Shown here: positions 6,843 through 39,943 of the stretch, piece by piece
How positions within the stretch are numbered: position 1 is the first letter of the stretch
How the letters are laid out: every line of letters starts with the position of its first letter
IMG/VR virus record: IMGVR_UViG_3300031787_000312
Coordinates: 1 to 39,943 of that record
Length of the DNA stretch: 39,943 nt
Strand: one strand, 5' to 3'
DNA from: a virus
The notes under the pieces: model-generated
What the model was told of the DNA's origin: nothing
Seen by the model: only the letters and a program-made list of their open reading frames with translations
The model's database searches: none
Program-made: the position numbers and the translations under genes

Positions 6843-7303
6843 CGGGTGACTCCGTAGGGCTGTGTGTTGTCGAATCGTGCGAAGCTTGGGGGCGTGTGTC
6901 GGGGCACGCGCCCAGCGCGCGCTTCGTCTTTGAACGCATGAAAATCACGGTGCATCTGCATCGCTGTCTCTTCGGCGCGAGCGCGTCCGAGGCGTTCCTC
7001 TTCGTTCGCTTGGAGCACGTTGCGAATCTCTTCGCGCGCGTCCGCGAGTTCTTTGCGGGCGGCAGCGAAGGCGTCGCGCAATGCGGTCGCATCGCTCTCG
7101 GTGATGCGCGCTTGCGACTCCCTCACACGCGCTTCTGCGAGCAGCTTCTGCGCTTCCGCGTCGAGCAGCGCAGCCTTCGCGTTGAGCGTTGCGGTCCACG
7201 ATCGGGAGCGGCGCTCAAGCGCTTTCGAGACGACGACGACGAAGCCCGCGAGGGCAGCGCCGACAGCGGGAATCGCGAGTAGCGATGTGAGCGCTTCGGG
7301 CAT
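6839..7303 (-). CDS. i-spanin-like coiled-coil membrane protein (putative)
   Basis: 154 residues. An N-terminal membrane anchor (ALTSLLAIPAVGAALAGFVV, to about residue 26) is followed by a long, highly charged coiled coil (LLDAEAQKLLAEARVRESQ through REEIRNVLQANEEERLGRAR) and a proline-containing tail. This is the design of Rz-type inner-membrane spanins, which pair with an outer-membrane lipoprotein; the next gene carries a lipobox. A membrane-anchored virion or holin-regulator protein is an alternative. Starts at the ATG of a TGATG overlap. Confidence 0.55.
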   Translation of the reverse strand: MPEALTSLLAIPAVGAALAGFVVVVSKALERRSRSWTATLNAKAALLDAEAQKLLAEARVRESQARITESDATALRDAFAAARKELADAREEIRNVLQANEEERLGRARAEETAMQMHRDFHAFKDEARAGRVPRHTPPSFARFDNTQPYGVTR

Positions 7304-8292
7304 CAGACCCTCGTCCCGATCGCTGCCGTGACAGCGGGAGCAAGCGCGGCCGCGAGCTTCGCAAAGCCCGCGACACTTGGGTGCGGCACAGCGTCGCCAA
7401 GGTCCGCAGGGTCCGTCAACGTGCTCGTGAGGTCGACACGTGTCAGCGAGCCGTCAGCGTGCGCGGCATGCGCGTCAAGCACGGTCTGCACGGCGGCGTT
7501 GTACAGGCCGATGCGCGTTGTGGTTGTCGGCGCACCTGGCGTGCCCGTGTACGTCGGGATGCGCACATGCAGCACGCGAGCGCCTGAGAACGTCGTGCGC
7601 AGATACGTGATGAAGGTGCCAACGTTTCCCGCTTTTGCGACCGCTGCGGCGTCGTTCGCGGATGTCAGCACATCGTTGAGGCCCGCAAAAATAACGCACA
7701 CGTGCGGCTCAGCGTCGGGCTGACGTAGCGCCCACACACGGTTTTCAATGGCGAACTGGATACCGGTGACCTGCGCACCCGCGAAACCACAATGCGCCTG
7801 CGTCCACGAGCCTGACGTTGCGATGCCTACCTGCAGCGTGTTGGTCATCAGCGTGGAGAGCGGGACGCGGTAGCCGAGCAGGTCGGGGTCAGCGGTGCCG
7901 ACTGTCCACGAGTCGCCGCACAGCATGATGCGAGCGGCGCCTGCGATTCGCTGCATATAGTCGGCGCCTTGATCGGTCATCCCGAGAACCGTCGCGCTCG
8001 CCACGTCTCCCGTGTCGCTCGCTGGCGTGATGACGCTTTCGGTCGTGCCGTCGCGAAGCGTGACGCTGTTCGTGACGCCTGCGACGCTGGCAACATCGGT
8101 CGTCCACCGGATGTAGTAACTCGTATCGCTCGTGCGATAGAGCAGGCGCACAGCGCTCGACTCGACGGCGTATTGACTGGCAACGAAGCGGCCTGGCGAT
8201 GGCACCACGCGAGGGAGTCCGAGGGCGTAGTTGATGGCGCGAACCTTCGCGCGCGCGGTGGCCAAGGAGGTGCCGAGATTGCACATCAGCAT
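7303..8292 (-). CDS. SGNH/GDSL hydrolase, tail-associated
   Basis: 329 residues with a C-terminal SGNH esterase domain: block I IMLCGDSWTVG (Ser128), block III FAGLNDV (Asn206), and block V GDAVPHPSVAGF (Asp300, His304), the expected catalytic set. The N-terminal ~120 residues are a beta-rich attachment domain (RLLYRTSDTSYYIRWTTDVA). In phages such enzymes usually de-acetylate or cleave surface polysaccharide during adsorption. The gene lies between the tail/fibre-like genes and the lysis genes. Starts at the ATG of a TGATG overlap; a start two codons later is possible. Confidence 0.85.
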   Translation of the reverse strand: MLMCNLGTSLATARAKVRAINYALGLPRVVPSPGRFVASQYAVESSAVRLLYRTSDTSYYIRWTTDVASVAGVTNSVTLRDGTTESVITPASDTGDVASATVLGMTDQGADYMQRIAGAARIMLCGDSWTVGTADPDLLGYRVPLSTLMTNTLQVGIATSGSWTQAHCGFAGAQVTGIQFAIENRVWALRQPDAEPHVCVIFAGLNDVLTSANDAAAVAKAGNVGTFITYLRTTFSGARVLHVRIPTYTGTPGAPTTTTRIGLYNAAVQTVLDAHAAHADGSLTRVDLTSTLTDPADLGDAVPHPSVAGFAKLAAALAPAVTAAIGTRV

Positions 8293-9032
8293 CAGAGTAC
8301 CCGCCCGACTTTGGACGCTGCGTAAGTGCGCATTGTGGCGCGCTCGCCCACGGTCAAGTCGCGCGGGAAGCACGCCGCGAAGGCGACGTCAACATCGGTC
8401 GCGCTCGTGCCCTCGCGGCACCATTGGAGCATATCGAGGAAGGCGCGATCTCGTGAGTACGCGGCGCCTACGGTCTCGGTCGCATCGACGAAGATGGACC
8501 GGCTCACTTGGGCGTTCTGGCGCCACATCGCAACGATCCATCCGGCCCCATACCCAGCCGACGTGATGGATGGATTTGTTGGCTCGGATGCCTGGTACGC
8601 AAAGAGCGCGGGGCCTGTGTTTTTGCCGAAATATACCGACGTGCCACCTCCGCTCGGAGACACTGGCATCGCAAAGTTCGAGACAACCGGGTGCTGCACA
8701 GAGACAGCACTTCGCCATGCGAATACGAACGTGAACGACTGCTCGTCGACGCGTGCGGAGAGTGGAGCGATTAGCCCAGTGTCATGCGTCGTGGAGCCCG
8801 TGAACTTGGCGAAGGAGAATGCGCCCGACGTGTCAAACGCAGGGCGGCAATCACGCGTGCTTGACACGAAGGGGCGATGTGACGCGGTCACGTCCTCGGC
8901 GTATGCGATGCGCCCGTTGACGATGGCGAGCGTGTTGGCGTTGGTGAAGTCATACGCCCACGAGGCGCCCGATACGGGCAGCGGGTACGAAACGCGCTGC
9001 GTCCGCGTGCGTCTGTCGCGCTCGCGCCTCAT
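8292..9032 (-). CDS. LamG/concanavalin-like tail protein (putative)
   Basis: 246 residues with the rhythm of a laminin-G/ConA-like jelly roll: SFTFVFAWRSAVSVQHPVVS, VYFGKNTGPALFAYQ, GYGAGWIVAMWRQNA, SRSIFVDATETVGA, then a closing segment DVDVAFAACFPRDLTVGER. Such domains in tail proteins often bind carbohydrate. Position next to the SGNH hydrolase suggests both act at the cell surface during adsorption. The Arg-rich first 13 residues after the ATGA start are odd. Confidence 0.6.
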   Translation of the reverse strand: MRRERDRRTRTQRVSYPLPVSGASWAYDFTNANTLAIVNGRIAYAEDVTASHRPFVSSTRDCRPAFDTSGAFSFAKFTGSTTHDTGLIAPLSARVDEQSFTFVFAWRSAVSVQHPVVSNFAMPVSPSGGGTSVYFGKNTGPALFAYQASEPTNPSITSAGYGAGWIVAMWRQNAQVSRSIFVDATETVGAAYSRDRAFLDMLQWCREGTSATDVDVAFAACFPRDLTVGERATMRTYAASKVGRVL

Positions 9033-29128: not shown

Positions 29129-29168
29129 CGTGGTGTCTCTTTCTGCCTGCGTTCTTGCTGGCCAGTGA

Positions 29169-29196
29169 ATCCTACTCTCTTCTCGTCAGCGCGCAA
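29169..29196 (-). promoter_or_regulatory. Promoter, TTGCGC-16-TAGGAT (leftward)
   Basis: Minus-strand -35 TTGCGC (29196-29191), 16-base spacer GCTGACGAGAAGAGAG, -10 TAGGAT (29174-29169). The spacer end plus -10 (AAGAGAGTAGGATTC) matches the divergent rightward promoter (AAGAGAGTAGCATTC) at 14 of 15 positions. Predicted start about 29162, a 34-base leader to ATG 29128. An inverted GCGCAA-N7-TTGCGC pair covers the -35. Confidence 0.65.
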
Positions 29197-29222
29197 CTAC
29201 TTTTTGCGCTTTTCTTTCGTCG

Positions 29223-29237
29223 TGCGCTGAAAGCGCA
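29223..29237. promoter_or_regulatory. Operator-like inverted repeat TGCGCT-GAA-AGCGCA
   Basis: Perfect 6-bp inverted arms around GAA, midway between two divergent promoters (the leftward at 29.17-29.20 kb, the rightward at 29.27-29.29 kb). Arms match the TGCGCA half-site family except the inner base. Likely a shared operator controlling both directions. Confidence 0.5.
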
Positions 29238-29265
29238 ATGATTACGGCGCGTTGCAAGATAGCAT

Positions 29266-29293
29266 TTGCGCAACGTCGGAAAGAGAGTAGCAT
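29266..29293 (+). promoter_or_regulatory. Promoter, TTGCGC-16-TAGCAT (rightward)
   Basis: -35 TTGCGC (29266-29271), spacer AACGTCGGAAAGAGAG (16), -10 TAGCAT (29288-29293). The -35 lies in the palindrome TTGCGCAA. Seven bases separate the -10 from the ATG at 29301, so transcription should start at or within a base of the start codon: a leaderless message is predicted. Confidence 0.65.
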
Positions 29294-29300
29294 TCAACCC

Positions 29301-29856: not shown

Positions 29857-30435
29857 ATGAAGACATACAAAAACAGGCACTTGCGCCCATCAAAGTCCGG
29901 CGATGAAGTATTGCGCCAACTCGACGAAGACGAAGCCATCGTGTTTCGCCTCGTCGGCTCTGACGTGCGCGCTACACCACGAATGGCGCGCATCGAAGCG
30001 TGGGCGCAATGGATGCACGACAACCCCGCTGACTTCGCGCGCTTGCTCTCAGAGCACCACGAGCGAGAAGCGCAACGCGAGCACGACGCGCACAAGCTTG
30101 CGCAAGCGTTAGAGCACGCGGCAGACGATGAGCTTGCATATGCGCTTAGCGTCGCGCGTGAGGCTCTCGAATGGCCGGAAGAGGCAAACCCGCACGACGA
30201 AGCCTTCGATGTCGCTAGCGAGGCGCTGGGAGTCGTGGCGCTACCATTCGACGCGTCAGCCTTGCCCCTTCCTGCCGATGTCGACGCATGGGCAGAGGTG
30301 CGAGACGATGAGCTGCGCATGACGCCTACGCGCGCACGCTGGACGCCGCAGCGCGACCCAAGGCGCTACCGCGCACGGACTGCGCTACCTGCGCAAGCGT
30401 TCATGTGCGACACGCGCACACACTACGGGCGTTGA
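29857..30435 (+). CDS. Hypothetical acidic helical protein
   Basis: 192 residues. A basic start (MKTYKNRHLRPSKSG) is followed by a long strongly acidic helical region rich in Glu, Ala and His (LLSEHHEREAQREHDAHKLA, QALEHAADDELAYALSVARE), then an acidic linker and an Arg-rich tail (RARWTPQRDPRRYRARTALP). The charge pattern could mimic DNA or mediate protein contacts. No family recognised. A 55-base gap with no hairpin precedes it. Confidence 0.6.
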   Translation: MKTYKNRHLRPSKSGDEVLRQLDEDEAIVFRLVGSDVRATPRMARIEAWAQWMHDNPADFARLLSEHHEREAQREHDAHKLAQALEHAADDELAYALSVAREALEWPEEANPHDEAFDVASEALGVVALPFDASALPLPADVDAWAEVRDDELRMTPTRARWTPQRDPRRYRARTALPAQAFMCDTRTHYGR

Positions 30436-30469
30436 CGCGGCTCTTCGCTGCGTTGCGTCAATGTTAGAA

Positions 30470-30499
30470 AATCGCGCGGGGAATGCTCTTGGCGCGATT
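30470..30499 (+). other. Stem-loop AATCGCGC...GCGCGATT
   Basis: Perfect 8-bp inverted repeat with a 14-base loop between two rightward genes. No U-tract follows, so a terminator is unlikely. It abuts the first copy of a 21-base repeat and may form a regulatory hairpin in the leader of the next gene. Confidence 0.4.
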
Positions 30500-30520
30500 G
30501 ACGGAAAATCGATTCTGGAA
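30500..30520. repeat. 21-base dispersed repeat, copy 1 (ACGGAAAATCGATT core)
   Basis: Identical over 21 bases to 30994-31014; a 14-base core recurs at 31563-31576. Contains the palindrome AATCGATT. This copy lies 14 bases before the start of the HTH gene at 30534. Confidence 0.7.
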
Positions 30521-30533
30521 ACGAGAGACACCG

Positions 30534-31121
30534 ATGCCAAGAAAACACGCGAACGCGCTCGCCATCATCATCCCCGAATGCACCGACTGGATGCAGCACT
30601 CTCCAGGGCTTCGAGACACGCTCAACAAGCCAGATGGCGGTGAGGCATGGGCCACAGTGTTTCGTGCCCTCCTAGCCTATGCCCAGCGCGGAGAACGGCC
30701 CTTCGAGGATTGGCTCCCCGACCTCGCAGCGCATCTTCTGGAGCTGGAGCGCTTGCCCTACGGCTCCGGCTTCGACGCGCCCCTCCCGGTCACCTACGAC
30801 GACGACGTGTACTCTCGCGTAATCGCAGCGGTGCGCGCGCGGAACGCCATCGAGCGAGGCCACGGTGTGCCTCGCTACTGGCTCGCGCACCTAGCCGGAT
30901 GCGCCCGACGCACCATCGAGAACGCGTGCTTTCGAGGCGCGCTCGTCGCTGTCGATGCTGGAAACTTCGACGGCAGAGAATCACCCTCACATCGACGGAA
31001 AATCGATTCTGGAACTGATGCCCGCGTGCGCCTGATTTGCCCAGAAAGCGCGCGCGCCTGGTTGGCATCGAGGGGTGTAGTTGTGGCCAGGTTGGAGCCA
31101 ACTGCACCGTGTCTATTTTGA
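30534..31121 (+). CDS. HTH-containing putative DNA-binding protein
   Basis: 195 residues. The N-terminal ~90 residues are helical and acidic (GEAWATVFRALLAYAQRGER, FEDWLPDLAAHLLELERLP). Residues 112-140 (VPRYWLAHLAGCARRTIENA then CFRGALVAV) read as a helix-turn-helix of the excisionase/MerR-like kind, and the C-terminal ICPESARAWLASRGV is typical of small HTH regulators. Start chosen at ATG 30534 since earlier codons lie in a repeat. A palindrome (CGTGTC-N6-GACACG) covers its stop codon and a sister site lies 245 bases on, so self-regulation or control of the downstream hub is plausible. Confidence 0.6.
   Translation: MPRKHANALAIIIPECTDWMQHSPGLRDTLNKPDGGEAWATVFRALLAYAQRGERPFEDWLPDLAAHLLELERLPYGSGFDAPLPVTYDDDVYSRVIAAVRARNAIERGHGVPRYWLAHLAGCARRTIENACFRGALVAVDAGNFDGRESPSHRRKIDSGTDARVRLICPESARAWLASRGVVVARLEPTAPCLF
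30994..31014. repeat. 21-base dispersed repeat, copy 2
   Basis: Exact copy of the sequence at 30500-30520, here inside the HTH gene where it encodes RKIDSG. A coding copy of a non-coding leader element suggests either a regulatory site tolerated in the gene or a past duplication. Confidence 0.7.
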
Positions 31122-31125
31122 CACG
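31108..31125. promoter_or_regulatory. Operator-like palindrome CGTGTC-TATTTT-GACACG
   Basis: Six-bp perfect arms around a 6-base AT centre, overlapping the stop codon of the HTH gene. Its reverse complement differs by one base from the core of the site at 31353-31374. Two such 18-mers 245 bases apart are unlikely by chance and look like binding sites of one dimeric protein. Confidence 0.6.
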
Positions 31126-31326
31126 CCCTGTGCGTTTGCGCGCTCGTGTCGTACATGCGACTACCCCTCGCACATCCACCCACTGCGCACCCGAGCGGCA
31201 CTGCCCATCCGCACCCTGCTCGCGCGCTCACCCTGCGCAGAGGAGCAGCTTCCCCGCCGCCCTCCCCGGTGCATCGGAAGCGGGAGAAGGGAGCGAAAGA
31301 GCACCCCCCTACCCCCCATCGCACTC

Positions 31327-31341
31327 TGGCACGCTATTTGC
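31327..31341 (+). promoter_or_regulatory. Sigma-54 (RpoN)-type promoter
   Basis: TGGCACG-CTAT-TTGC matches the sigma-54 consensus TGGCACG-N4-TTGC at every defined position, with the required 10 bases between the -24 GG and the -12 GC. Transcription would start near 31353, exactly where the 22-bp palindrome begins, and run into the 24-codon reading frame. An enhancer-binding activator would be needed, probably from the host; none is seen in the phage. Confidence 0.6.
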
Positions 31342-31352
31342 GGGACGCAGAG

Positions 31353-31374
31353 ACCGTGTCAAAACAGACACGGT
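31353..31374. promoter_or_regulatory. Operator/hairpin ACCGTGTC-AAAACA-GACACGGT
   Basis: Perfect 8-bp arms around AAAACA, placed at the predicted start of the sigma-54 transcript. On DNA it would be an operator paired with the site at 31108-31125. In RNA it would form a 5' hairpin protecting or regulating the message. Confidence 0.65.
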
Positions 31375-31389
31375 GGATGGAGGGTCTCT

Positions 31390-31464
31390 ATGGGGGTGCT
31401 CGCAGCTTCCTCCGCCGCTACCTATCGGCATGCGTCTTCGGTCGCGTTGTCGCACCTGGCGTGA
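31390..31464 (+). CDS. 24-codon small open reading frame
   Basis: ATG with a good ribosome site (TGGAGGG, 7 bases upstream) encoding MGVLAASSAATYRHASSVAL plus four residues. It is the only reading frame with a ribosome site just downstream of the sigma-54-type promoter. It may be a real micropeptide, a leader peptide controlling the downstream operon, or noise. Nothing is conserved that I can recognise. Confidence 0.35.
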   Translation: MGVLAASSAATYRHASSVALSHLA

Positions 31465-31539
31465 GCCAGCCTTCGGAAGATGGCCCAAGAGCACGCTGCG
31501 TTCAAGCGCAAAATCTGCGCAAAAGCTAGAAACTCGAAA

Positions 31540-31553
31540 TGCGCATATGCGCA
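31540..31553. promoter_or_regulatory. Operator palindrome TGCGCATATGCGCA
   Basis: Perfect 14-bp palindrome 22 bases upstream of the -35 box of the next promoter, with additional half-sites AGCGCAAAA (31505-31513) and TGCGCAAAA (31516-31524) before it. Same half-site family as the operators at 28.38, 39.28 and 39.34 kb. Confidence 0.6.
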
Positions 31554-31562
31554 AAACATTCA

Positions 31563-31576
31563 ACGGAAAATCGATT
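31563..31576. repeat. 14-base core of dispersed repeat, copy 3
   Basis: ACGGAAAATCGATT, identical to the first part of the 21-base repeats at 30.50 and 30.99 kb. Its last two bases belong to the TTGCGC -35 box of the promoter for the gene at 31621. Confidence 0.65.
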
Positions 31577-31602
31577 GCGCTTTTGTGCGCATGTGCTAAT
31601 CA
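31575..31602 (+). promoter_or_regulatory. Promoter, TTGCGC-16-TAATCA
   Basis: -35 TTGCGC (31575-31580), 16-base spacer containing an inverted TGCGCA half-site, -10 TAATCA (31597-31602) preceded by TGC. Predicted start about 31609, just before the AAGGAG ribosome site of the gene at 31621. Same geometry as four other operon heads in this genome. Confidence 0.6.
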
Positions 31603-31620
31603 AACAACCAAGGAGACACG

Positions 31621-31896
31621 ATGACATTTCTCGACCAACTCGCAGCAACACAAGACGACCTCGCCGCCGAGGAAGCGCGAGACCCGTCTTTGGCTAGGTG
31701 CTCAGGGTGCGGCTCAATGACTGACCCAGCGGTCTGCCACTGTGGCGACTACGAGACGAGCCACGAGTACGTCGATGACCACGGCTTCGTGCCTATTGGG
31801 TGCGACTGCTTCAGGTCCGATGACACTTCGAAGTCTGCACGCGTGGCGTGGAAGGCACGTGGCATCACGTGTGGCGTCGCTAAGGTGGCGCCATGA
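31621..31896 (+). CDS. Small Cys-rich protein (zinc-binding, hypothetical)
   Basis: Ninety-one residues with AAGGAG 5 bases before the ATG. Five or more Cys in CSGCGSMTDPAVCHCGDYET and GCDCFRSDD, with His residues between, suggest one or two zinc sites. The C-terminus is basic (SARVAWKARGITCGVAK). Heads the operon that contains the helicase, so a role in DNA metabolism is possible. Family unknown. Confidence 0.7.
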   Translation: MTFLDQLAATQDDLAAEEARDPSLARCSGCGSMTDPAVCHCGDYETSHEYVDDHGFVPIGCDCFRSDDTSKSARVAWKARGITCGVAKVAP

Positions 31897-32642
31897 GCAC
31901 GCTGCTTGAGCAAGTGGAGGCGATGCTTCATGGCATCATCAACGAGCGCGTGCGTGAGGATTGGGCTGAGCTTTCGACGGCCATCAACGGTCTGTCGTGT
32001 TCGACGCGAGAAGAGGCGCTCACGCGACTTCGCCATCTCCAAGCAGACGCGCGCAATGCGTGCGCTCTTTCGGTCGAGCGCACGAAAGCTCTGCGAGAGC
32101 GAGACGCAGCCCGCGCCGAGCTTGCAGGCGTCGCTGCGCAGCGTGACGCGCACCTGACGCGGTCTGCCGAGTTGGCCACGCGCAACGCTGAGCTTGAGGC
32201 GAAGACGTTCGATCTCGCAAGACTGGAGCAAGACAACGCTGGGCTTCGCAGCGCGCTTTCAAGCGAGGCGCGCAAGACGTTCGATATGCACGCACGCATC
32301 ACCGAGCTTGAGGCGCGACTTGCTGCTGCGGCGCCTGCCGAGGTTGACGGGTTCCGCGTGGGCGATTTGATCCGCCTAGAGGGGATCGCAGATTCACAAA
32401 TCGAATCGTTCATGAAGGTCACCGGCTGCTGGAGGATGCTTGTGGCCGGGCAGTGGTGGACGGTCGGGCGGCACAGTCGCAAGCCCGTCGAAGTGGGCGA
32501 CACGGTGCGATGCGTCTGGGGCAACCTCAAAGGACGCGGCGGGCGAGTCGAGTACGAATGCGGCGGCGAACAGTGGCGCGTGACGTCGCCCGATGGAGCG
32601 TTCTACGCGACCGCCAAGCACATCGTAGCGGTGGCCCCGTGA
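31893..32642 (+). CDS. Coiled-coil protein with C-terminal KOW/SH3-like domains
   Basis: 249 residues. Residues ~20-145 form a long coiled coil (LRERDAARAELAGVAAQRDA, LATRNAELEAKTFDLARLEQ). The C-terminal ~100 residues contain two small barrel-like stretches (VDGFRVGDLIRLEGIADSQI and VEVGDTVRCVWGNLKGRGG), the second with the Gly pattern of KOW motifs. It may be an oligomeric nucleic-acid-binding or scaffolding factor for the downstream helicase. Starts with an ATGA overlap. Confidence 0.65.
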   Translation: MSTLLEQVEAMLHGIINERVREDWAELSTAINGLSCSTREEALTRLRHLQADARNACALSVERTKALRERDAARAELAGVAAQRDAHLTRSAELATRNAELEAKTFDLARLEQDNAGLRSALSSEARKTFDMHARITELEARLAAAAPAEVDGFRVGDLIRLEGIADSQIESFMKVTGCWRMLVAGQWWTVGRHSRKPVEVGDTVRCVWGNLKGRGGRVEYECGGEQWRVTSPDGAFYATAKHIVAVAP

Positions 32643-36202: not shown

Positions 36203-36798
36203 GTGGTCCTCACACTTCGCGCCATCGCGATAAGAATCTCGCGAAACTCCGCTGGCGTTTCCGACGCCCTCCGCTTTCCAACTTTCGGGCGATGCTCTCC
36301 GCCTGACTTTGTCTTGTTGCCGCACCACGACACCGCTGATTTTGTATCAGCATCGTTGACGCTGCCCCACTTCAGCGATGGGAGCTCGCAGCCGAACGCG
36401 TAGAGCCATGTCGCTTTCTTTGCGACGTGCCCGTAACGGCCCTGCTCCACATGGCAGGCCCAACCACCGCATGCCCCACGTTGCCATCCGCCACGTCTCG
36501 AAGGAGTGGGCAGCCCAAACACTTTAAAAGCGTCGCTGTACGCCGGATGCTCAAGCACGCCGCCGACGCGTCGAACATTGGCAAGCGCAGACGCAAAGCA
36601 TCCACCATCGTCACCGCGCTTATAACCCCACCGCGCTTCGCAGAGCGCAGCCAAACGGCACCACCGCGAACAGGGCGGGTGCGCGACGACTGGGTGCGGG
36701 CCGTCGTAGTTCCGCGCGTCGCGCTTGACGTCCCATGCGTCAACGCCAGGGACGCGAGAGTACGGCCCATCCGCATAGACAAACAGAGCGGCGATCAC
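36199..36798 (-). CDS. PPC-motif methyltransferase-like phage protein
   Basis: 199 residues from a GTG in a GTGA overlap. The conserved pattern YADGPYSRVPGVDAWD, then GPHPVVAHPPCSRWCRLA, DDGGCFASALANVRRVGGVL, LEHPAYSDAF, and ATWLYAFGCELPSLKWGS marks a family found in many phages and some bacteria. The HPPCSRW stretch recalls the catalytic PPC of cytosine-C5 methyltransferases and LEHP the later ENV position, but I see no SAM-binding FxGxG motif. Nucleotide or DNA modification is possible. The family call rests on resemblance. Confidence 0.65.
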   Translation of the reverse strand: MIAALFVYADGPYSRVPGVDAWDVKRDARNYDGPHPVVAHPPCSRWCRLAALCEARWGYKRGDDGGCFASALANVRRVGGVLEHPAYSDAFKVFGLPTPSRRGGWQRGACGGWACHVEQGRYGHVAKKATWLYAFGCELPSLKWGSVNDADTKSAVSWCGNKTKSGGEHRPKVGKRRASETPAEFREILIAMARSVRTT

Positions 36799-37259
36799 GC
36801 GCACCCCAGCTGGTACCGCGCAAACCATCTGTCGAGGATGCGCGCGCAGGCGCTGACAGAGCTGTAGAGCGGCTTCGTCGTGGCATCTTTGACGGTCCAC
36901 CCGTTCTTGATTCGCCAATGTGCTGTTCGCGAACTGATGCCGTTCGCGCGCGCAAGCGCTGCGATGTTGACCATGGGCGCCAACTCCTCGCCTGCGTCCA
37001 TGAGCCTGCGCACGCGTGGACGCGAGCACCCAAGCGCTCTCGCGGCCGCGTCGATGGACCCGCAGCGCGTGCCGTCCGCGAGCATGACGGGCTTGGCGTC
37101 CCTGATGCACGAGGCGGGCTTCTTCGCGACGCTTTCGCGCGTCACTGGCACGCCCTGAGACTTCAGCCTTGAGATGCGCTTGTGCACCGTGGACACCTGC
37201 AGTCCAAGCCTGTTGGCGAGCGCCGTGATGGACTCGAATCCAGCAACGGGCGTGGTCAT
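36795..37259 (-). CDS. Triple helix-turn-helix DNA-binding protein
   Basis: 154 residues with three HTH-like units: SITALANRLGLQVSTVHKRI (10-29), SIDAAARALGCSRPRVRRLM (68-87), and NIAALARANGISSRTAHWRI (98-117), the first also resembling the MarR/MerR style. Tandem HTH units usually bind multi-part DNA sites, as in replication initiators or multi-site regulators. It sits between the RusA-like gene and the PPC protein. It is a candidate origin-binding or regulatory protein; no catalytic motif is seen. Confidence 0.65.
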   Translation of the reverse strand: MTTPVAGFESITALANRLGLQVSTVHKRISRLKSQGVPVTRESVAKKPASCIRDAKPVMLADGTRCGSIDAAARALGCSRPRVRRLMDAGEELAPMVNIAALARANGISSRTAHWRIKNGWTVKDATTKPLYSSVSACARILDRWFARYQLGCA

Positions 37260-39261: not shown

Positions 39262-39289
39262 ACATTAGCGCTTTTGCGCGCATGCGCAA
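39262..39289 (-). promoter_or_regulatory. Promoter of the repressor gene, TTGCGC-16-TAATGT
   Basis: Minus-strand -35 TTGCGC (39289-39284), 16-base spacer, -10 TAATGT (39267-39262). About seven bases further the ATG at 39256 begins, so the RNA should start at or next to the start codon, as for lambda cI from its maintenance promoter. The -35 lies in the inverted repeat TTGCGCGCATGCGCAA. Confidence 0.7.
39274..39289. promoter_or_regulatory. Operator TTGCGC-GCAT-GCGCAA
   Basis: Inverted TTGCGC/GCGCAA arms around GCAT in the spacer between repressor and rightward early operon, covering the -35 of the repressor promoter. Contains the 10-bp palindrome GCGCATGCGC also present at 28.38 kb. Confidence 0.65.
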
Positions 39290-39335
39290 GTTTCTGTCCG
39301 GTAAGCCTATTTGCGAGGGCTGCGTCGATTTGTTG

Positions 39336-39351
39336 TTGCGCAAATGCGCAA
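39336..39351. promoter_or_regulatory. Operator TTGCGCA-AA-TGCGCAA
   Basis: Perfect 7-bp arms around AA in the leader of the rightward early operon, 19 bases before ATG 39370. Half-sites are identical to the other operators. No TTGCGC-16-TA promoter for the rightward operon is visible in this gap; a -10-like CCTATT/TATTTG near 39308 is a weak candidate. Confidence 0.6.
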
Positions 39352-39702: not shown

Positions 39703-39943
39703 TTGACGCAATCGACGGCAAAGACATGCCCGAAGAGTCGCCTCCGATGACTGTTGAGCGGGCGAAAGAGGTGCTCGACCTGACCGTTCGCTACGGCGAA
39801 GAAGATGAGAAGGAAGCGCTCAACACGCTTTGCGAACGCATCACGACGCTTAAGCGCATCATTCGCGTTCGCCTAGGCCCCGGCGCAGTGCCAACGACAT
39901 CCATCCACAGCGGGCGACCGCTTTACGACGACAAGAGGAAGAG
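39699..39943 (+). CDS. Small hypothetical early protein (5' part of gene crossing the joint)
   Basis: Begins at a GTG overlapping the previous stop as GTGA and runs off the right end inside the terminal repeat. When joined to the left end it stops at the TGA ending at base 226, giving 83 residues. This copy carries Lys in place of Glu at the position of the single repeat mismatch. Confidence 0.75.
   Translation, partial: MIDAIDGKDMPEESPPMTVERAKEVLDLTVRYGEEDEKEALNTLCERITTLKRIIRVRLGPGAVPTTSIHSGRPLYDDKRK
39725..39943. repeat. Right copy of terminal direct repeat
   Basis: Second copy of the 219-base end repeat. It differs from the left copy by one base, turning a Glu codon (GAG) into Lys (AAG) in the gene that crosses the joint. 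It shows that the plus-strand operon starting at 39370 continues into the genes at the left end of the window. Confidence 0.9.

Follow-up and report, generated by a model that had tools for sequence, protein, structure and literature searches.

A sigma-54-like motif, a palindrome and a micro-ORF are parts of one predicted RNA fold in an uncultured phage

The window analysed here, the whole stretch of 39,943 nt, is probably the complete, circularly permuted genome (~39.7 kb) of an uncultured phage, since positions 1-219 and 39725-39943 overlap by 219 nt with 99.5% identity. It encodes terminase, portal, capsid and internal virion proteins, as well as RecT, HNH and helicase proteins, an Sf6-like small terminase and one tRNA-Arg; integrase families are absent from the phage. 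A GDSL-type lipase/acylhydrolase, possibly a virion-borne hydrolase, is encoded among the structural genes (7303-8373). Searches with the protein encoded upstream of our locus, the helicase, the portal and the terminase returned a single close relative, IMGVR_UViG_3300046000_009554 (39,984 bases), which has the same genome plan and different ends, and a 99% identical fragment that stops short of the locus. All other relatives are phages at ~30-40% protein identity, with portal and capsid common at ~30%; the next relatives share ~31% identity in the portal protein. We found no DNA-level similarity to the region among phage records and no similar plasmid DNA.

The locus lies between two plus-strand genes. 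The upstream gene (30534-31121) codes for a 195-aa protein with no assigned family, in which inspection by eye suggests a possible helix-turn-helix; its AlphaFold model has low confidence (pLDDT 40). The first downstream gene (31621-31896, 91 aa) gives way to unrelated sequence in the close relative. Divergence from the relative amounts to 15 of 371 positions in the noncoding stretch 31122-31492 and to 52 of 588 across the upstream gene (P = 0.004). We rejected the long frame at 31146-31529 as coding sequence, since its substitutions, judged by hand, lack third-position bias.

A preliminary description had placed in this stretch a sigma-54 promoter, a palindrome beginning at its predicted start site and a 24-codon frame, and all three are present. 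The sigma-54-like motif TGGCACG-CTAT-TTGC (TGGCACGCTATTTGC) occupies 31327-31341 on the plus strand with the correct -24/-12 spacing, predicting a +1 at 31353 when the C of TTGC is taken as -12. It has an 11-base exact core with GG and GC elements in consensus context, is intergenic and points in the operon direction. The exact core TGGCACGN4TTGC occurs once, against 0.04 expected from shuffles of the whole window on both strands; chance matches of this kind will turn up in a scan of many windows, and at up to two mismatches the core shows no excess (4 found, 9.8 expected). Both boxes are identical in the sole available relative, which passes the conservation check proposed in the preliminary description; the test is weak because the two genomes are ~92% identical over the motif stretch and all 68 bases around the motif are unchanged. 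Nor is this invariance special, as an equally long run further on (31421-31492) is also unchanged. The motif is absent from seven distantly related records. Neither phage carries a gene for an enhancer-binding protein (PF00158), which is not decisive, as a host activator would suffice. Within the literature searched, no lytic phage was described as having a sigma-54 promoter, although such a case may exist elsewhere.

The palindrome ACCGTGTC-AAAACA-GACACGGT (31353-31374, plus strand) begins at the predicted +1 and consists of perfect 8-bp arms around a 6-nt centre. The preliminary description was incomplete in that it missed a twin dyad and the nested fold enclosing all three features. The twin (31106-31125; CGTGTCAAAATAGACACGGT on the minus strand) overlaps the upstream gene's stop codon, at a separation of 247 bp. 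Within the window, 31109 and 31356 are the only mismatch-free sites of GTGTC-N6-GACAC, and both dyads match GTGTCAAAAYAGACAC exactly, with 0.28 matches expected even at up to three mismatches; the only two exact copies are GTGTCAAAATAGACAC on the opposite strand (31109-31124) and GTGTCAAAACAGACAC (31356-31371). Together with its flanks, the twin forms an inverted repeat with 31345-31375 (27 of 31 positions), the best in the genome at spacings of up to 520 bp. The upstream dyad stays perfect in the relative, and the downstream dyad becomes GTGTCAAAAAGTACAC, losing its innermost pair and retaining 7-bp arms. A terminator reading of the dyads was ruled out, there being no T-run after either on the plus strand, and an invertible promoter segment between them is unlikely given the lack of integrase families. 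DNA pattern scans of virus and cell genomes returned no more matches to the dyad than chance.

In a whole-genome folding scan (150-nt windows, both strands, 30 shuffles each), 31276-31425 ranked first of 1,062 windows with the lowest z (-8.4 on the plus and -6.9 on the minus strand), the tRNA region being the sole other place in that range (z -5.8 and -7.6). The structured RNA offered as one option in the preliminary description is thus well supported, the region being the strongest predicted fold of the genome. The sense strand of 31290-31409 can, according to the folding model, form a very stable Y-shaped, three-way-junction RNA that holds the micro-ORF start (minimum free energy -65 kcal/mol, z -6.5; all folding energies are model values at 37 °C). 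P0 (31290-31294/31405-31409), P1 (31299-31308/31392-31401) and P2 (31311-31314 and 31316-31320 with 31376-31380 and 31382-31385) make up one long arm, hairpin P3 (31324-31352) carries the -24/-12 motif, and hairpin P4 is the palindrome. The promoter-like motif, the palindrome and the tiny gene are pieces of one RNA stretch that is predicted to fold tightly.

The element of the relative, 94% identical, adopts a near-identical predicted fold (-63.5 kcal/mol, z -5.5) with one pair fewer in P4 and two more in P0; the consensus of both folds has 39 pairs. Of the seven substitutions, five hit unpaired positions of the window's structure (P = 0.03); scored against the structure of the relative, the count drops to four (P = 0.11). 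The change at 31382 breaks a pair and that at 31381 replaces it, shifting a C-A mismatch by one base and keeping GGAGG, and the change at 31367 opens the innermost P4 pair. No pair has changed on both sides between these two sequences, and the searches gave no intermediate relatives, so the evidence for the fold is energetic, not covariational. The minus strand folds nearly as well (z -6.2); one G-U pair occurs in P0 and a second is gained in the relative, and pairs of this kind can form only in plus-strand RNA. Rfam 15 covariance models gave no relevant match to 30400-32400 even at E up to 1, and a covariance model of the fold retrieved nothing beyond the two known copies, apart from weak matches on their opposite strands. 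A DNA pattern scan for the P1-P2 strand revealed no family, its three other matches folding differently.

The micro-ORF (MGVLAASSAATYRHASSVALSHLA, 31390-31464, plus strand, 24 codons) starts with an ATG 15 bases past the dyad, behind the ribosome-binding site TGGAGGG (31378-31384). In the predicted structure this site and the AUG sit in the 3' strand of P2 and P1, the ribosome site in that of P2. Opening the start is calculated to cost 32-34 kcal/mol in RNA begun upstream and 13-17 kcal/mol if the transcript begins at 31353; the starts of 26 other genes of the phage require 4.7-24.8 kcal/mol (below 16 in 22 of them). The frame, with its start and ribosome site, is kept in the relative with three substitutions, one silent and two replacing, too few to judge selection on a protein, and the micropeptide is without independent support as a protein. 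The combination of GGAGG and a closely following ATG occurs eight times on the plus strand of the window: compared by eye, four are starts of plus-strand phage ORFs, one is the micro-ORF, and the remaining three fall within minus-strand gene territory, probably by chance; the micro-ORF start is hence plausible but not compelling.

Our preferred reading, held tentatively and with less than even confidence, is that the element works as a start-site translation switch like those of T4 gene e and I-TevI. In T4 gene e, late promoters lie in the sequence coding for the 5' strand of an inhibitory structure, and the late messages are translated well (PMC3014915). In the phage element, read-through messages from the upstream genes would fold so as to hold the micro-ORF start closed, with translation off; read-through is plausible here because the plus strand has no terminator-like site between 30400 and 32700. 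An internal transcript from the -24/-12 motif would start at 31353, inside the DNA that codes for the fold. Such a transcript would lack P3 and the 5' halves of P1 and P2, would carry the P4 hairpin as a cap at its 5' end, and would present a far more open micro-ORF start. The same DNA would then specify both the fold that inhibits read-through RNA and, within it, the promoter whose transcripts escape that inhibition. Dependence of that promoter on sigma-54 is possible from the motif, as a further and weaker step.

As in the T4 cases, a predicted inhibitory structure covers the ribosome site in read-through RNA, a promoter motif lies in the DNA of the 5' strand, and internal transcripts would be without that strand. 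The T4 promoters, by contrast, are phage-specific late promoters that have been mapped, and their targets are full genes; our element is a three-way junction with a sigma-54-like motif and a frame of 24 codons. The analogy is one of anatomy. Several observations count against a switch: the inverted repeats may also act in DNA, with the minus strand folding almost as well, the target has only 24 codons and no sign of protein-level selection, and the opening energy from 31353 still exceeds that of most gene starts of the phage. Were the switch correct, phages would have a second lineage in which a promoter is stored within the very fold whose inhibition it evades, with a possible tie to an alternative sigma factor of the host. 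Sigma-54 aside, the three signals that looked separate form a single object, an undescribed and strongly structured phage RNA element.

A functional structured RNA that is not a switch, such as an RNase III processing site, an mRNA-stabilising element or a small noncoding RNA, would account for the strength and conservation of the fold and is the strongest competitor, although we consider it unlikely. Under this reading the -24/-12 match would be a coincidence within a conserved stem, in keeping with the low chance expectation for the sigma-54 core being set against the many windows read, and with a micro-ORF unsupported as a protein. It leaves aside that the ribosome site and AUG fall exactly in the 3' strand and that GGAGG survives a double substitution, and no Rfam family matches. 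The T7-type RNase III processing stems are likewise long, intergenic and part of polycistronic phage messages; the element differs from them in its three-way junction.

Less probable again is that the inverted repeats act in DNA, as an operator pair (31106-31125 and 31353-31374) bound by a phage or host regulator that perhaps forms a DNA loop around an internal promoter; the RNA fold would be a by-product. The centres of the two dyads have been kept as reverse complements (TATTTT and TGTTTT), for which hairpin loops have no need, and the rank of the 31-nt inverted repeat, the near-equal folding of the minus strand and the helix-turn-helix proteins encoded by the phage all fit such a pair. Like operators of Cro/CI-type phage repressors, the two dyads are near-identical palindromes with an A/T-rich, asymmetric centre, and the phage encodes an HTH_3 protein. 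Unlike those operators, the dyad does not occur beside the HTH_3 gene (none near 39.2 kb, in the control region of this Cro/CI-like gene), where a different palindrome, TTGCGCNNATGCGCAA, is found. The downstream dyad is moreover damaged in the relative, the site shows no excess in virus or cell genomes, and P1, P2 and P3 lie outside the dyads and are left unexplained.

A plain sigma-54 promoter of the kind put forward in the preliminary description, at which the RpoN holoenzyme and an enhancer-binding protein of the host would transcribe rightwards from 31353 with the fold irrelevant, seems very doubtful: the exact, correctly spaced core, its intergenic position and direction and its identity in the relative speak for it, and the lack of an activator gene in the phage and of a recognised activator site, the absence of the motif from the seven distant records and the conserved stem, which gives another reason for the motif's conservation, speak against it. 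Compared with bacterial sigma-54 (RpoN) promoters such as the Salmonella set (PMC3844500), the motif is alike in its exact GG/GC elements, spacing, intergenic position and operon direction and unlike in having no known activator site or activator gene and in being buried in an RNA stem. Only a slight probability attaches to a host sigma-54 promoter embedded in the inhibitory fold, by which a host stress or nutrient signal would both start the transcript and open translation of the micropeptide; if true, read-through transcripts could not make the micropeptide. Over the switch and the promoter-only reading together, we put a working sigma-54 promoter at about one in three.

The preliminary description was partly supported overall; its suggestion that part of the operon may respond to a host regulatory state found no support, as neither phage has an enhancer-binding protein gene and the downstream operon has its own operator-rich candidate control region. 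This region (31506-31597, plus strand) lies outside the fold and contains TGCGCATATGCGCA at 31540 and TTGCGC half-sites. A like cluster lies upstream of the minus-strand Cro/CI-like HTH_3 gene (39274-39346), and the divergent region heading the operon has a smaller one (29191-29268). TTGCGC/TGCGCA half-sites within 130 bp number 8, 8 and 6 at 39274-39351, 31506-31597 and 29191-29268, respectively (uniform expectation of the maximum 3.9, 99th percentile 6), and a palindrome other than the GTGTC dyad is common to 31506-31597 and the HTH_3 gene control region. The clusters are likely shared repressor operators, and a phage repressor acting on them is the more ordinary candidate input to the operon. 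The HTH_3 protein may bind them; a second candidate regulator is the minus-strand protein encoded at 36795-37259, which has strong matches to winged and other helix-turn-helix families.

Two further repeats were observed. ACGGAAAATCGATT is present in exactly three copies, all on the plus strand (30501-30514, 30995-31008 and 31563-31576), with no further match at up to two mismatches; the relative keeps every copy, and a similar YTRGAAA motif lies ~36 bases upstream of each. An imperfect 36-nt inverted repeat (75%; 29166-29201 and 29261-29296) sits in the region from which the late minus-strand genes and the plus-strand operon diverge.
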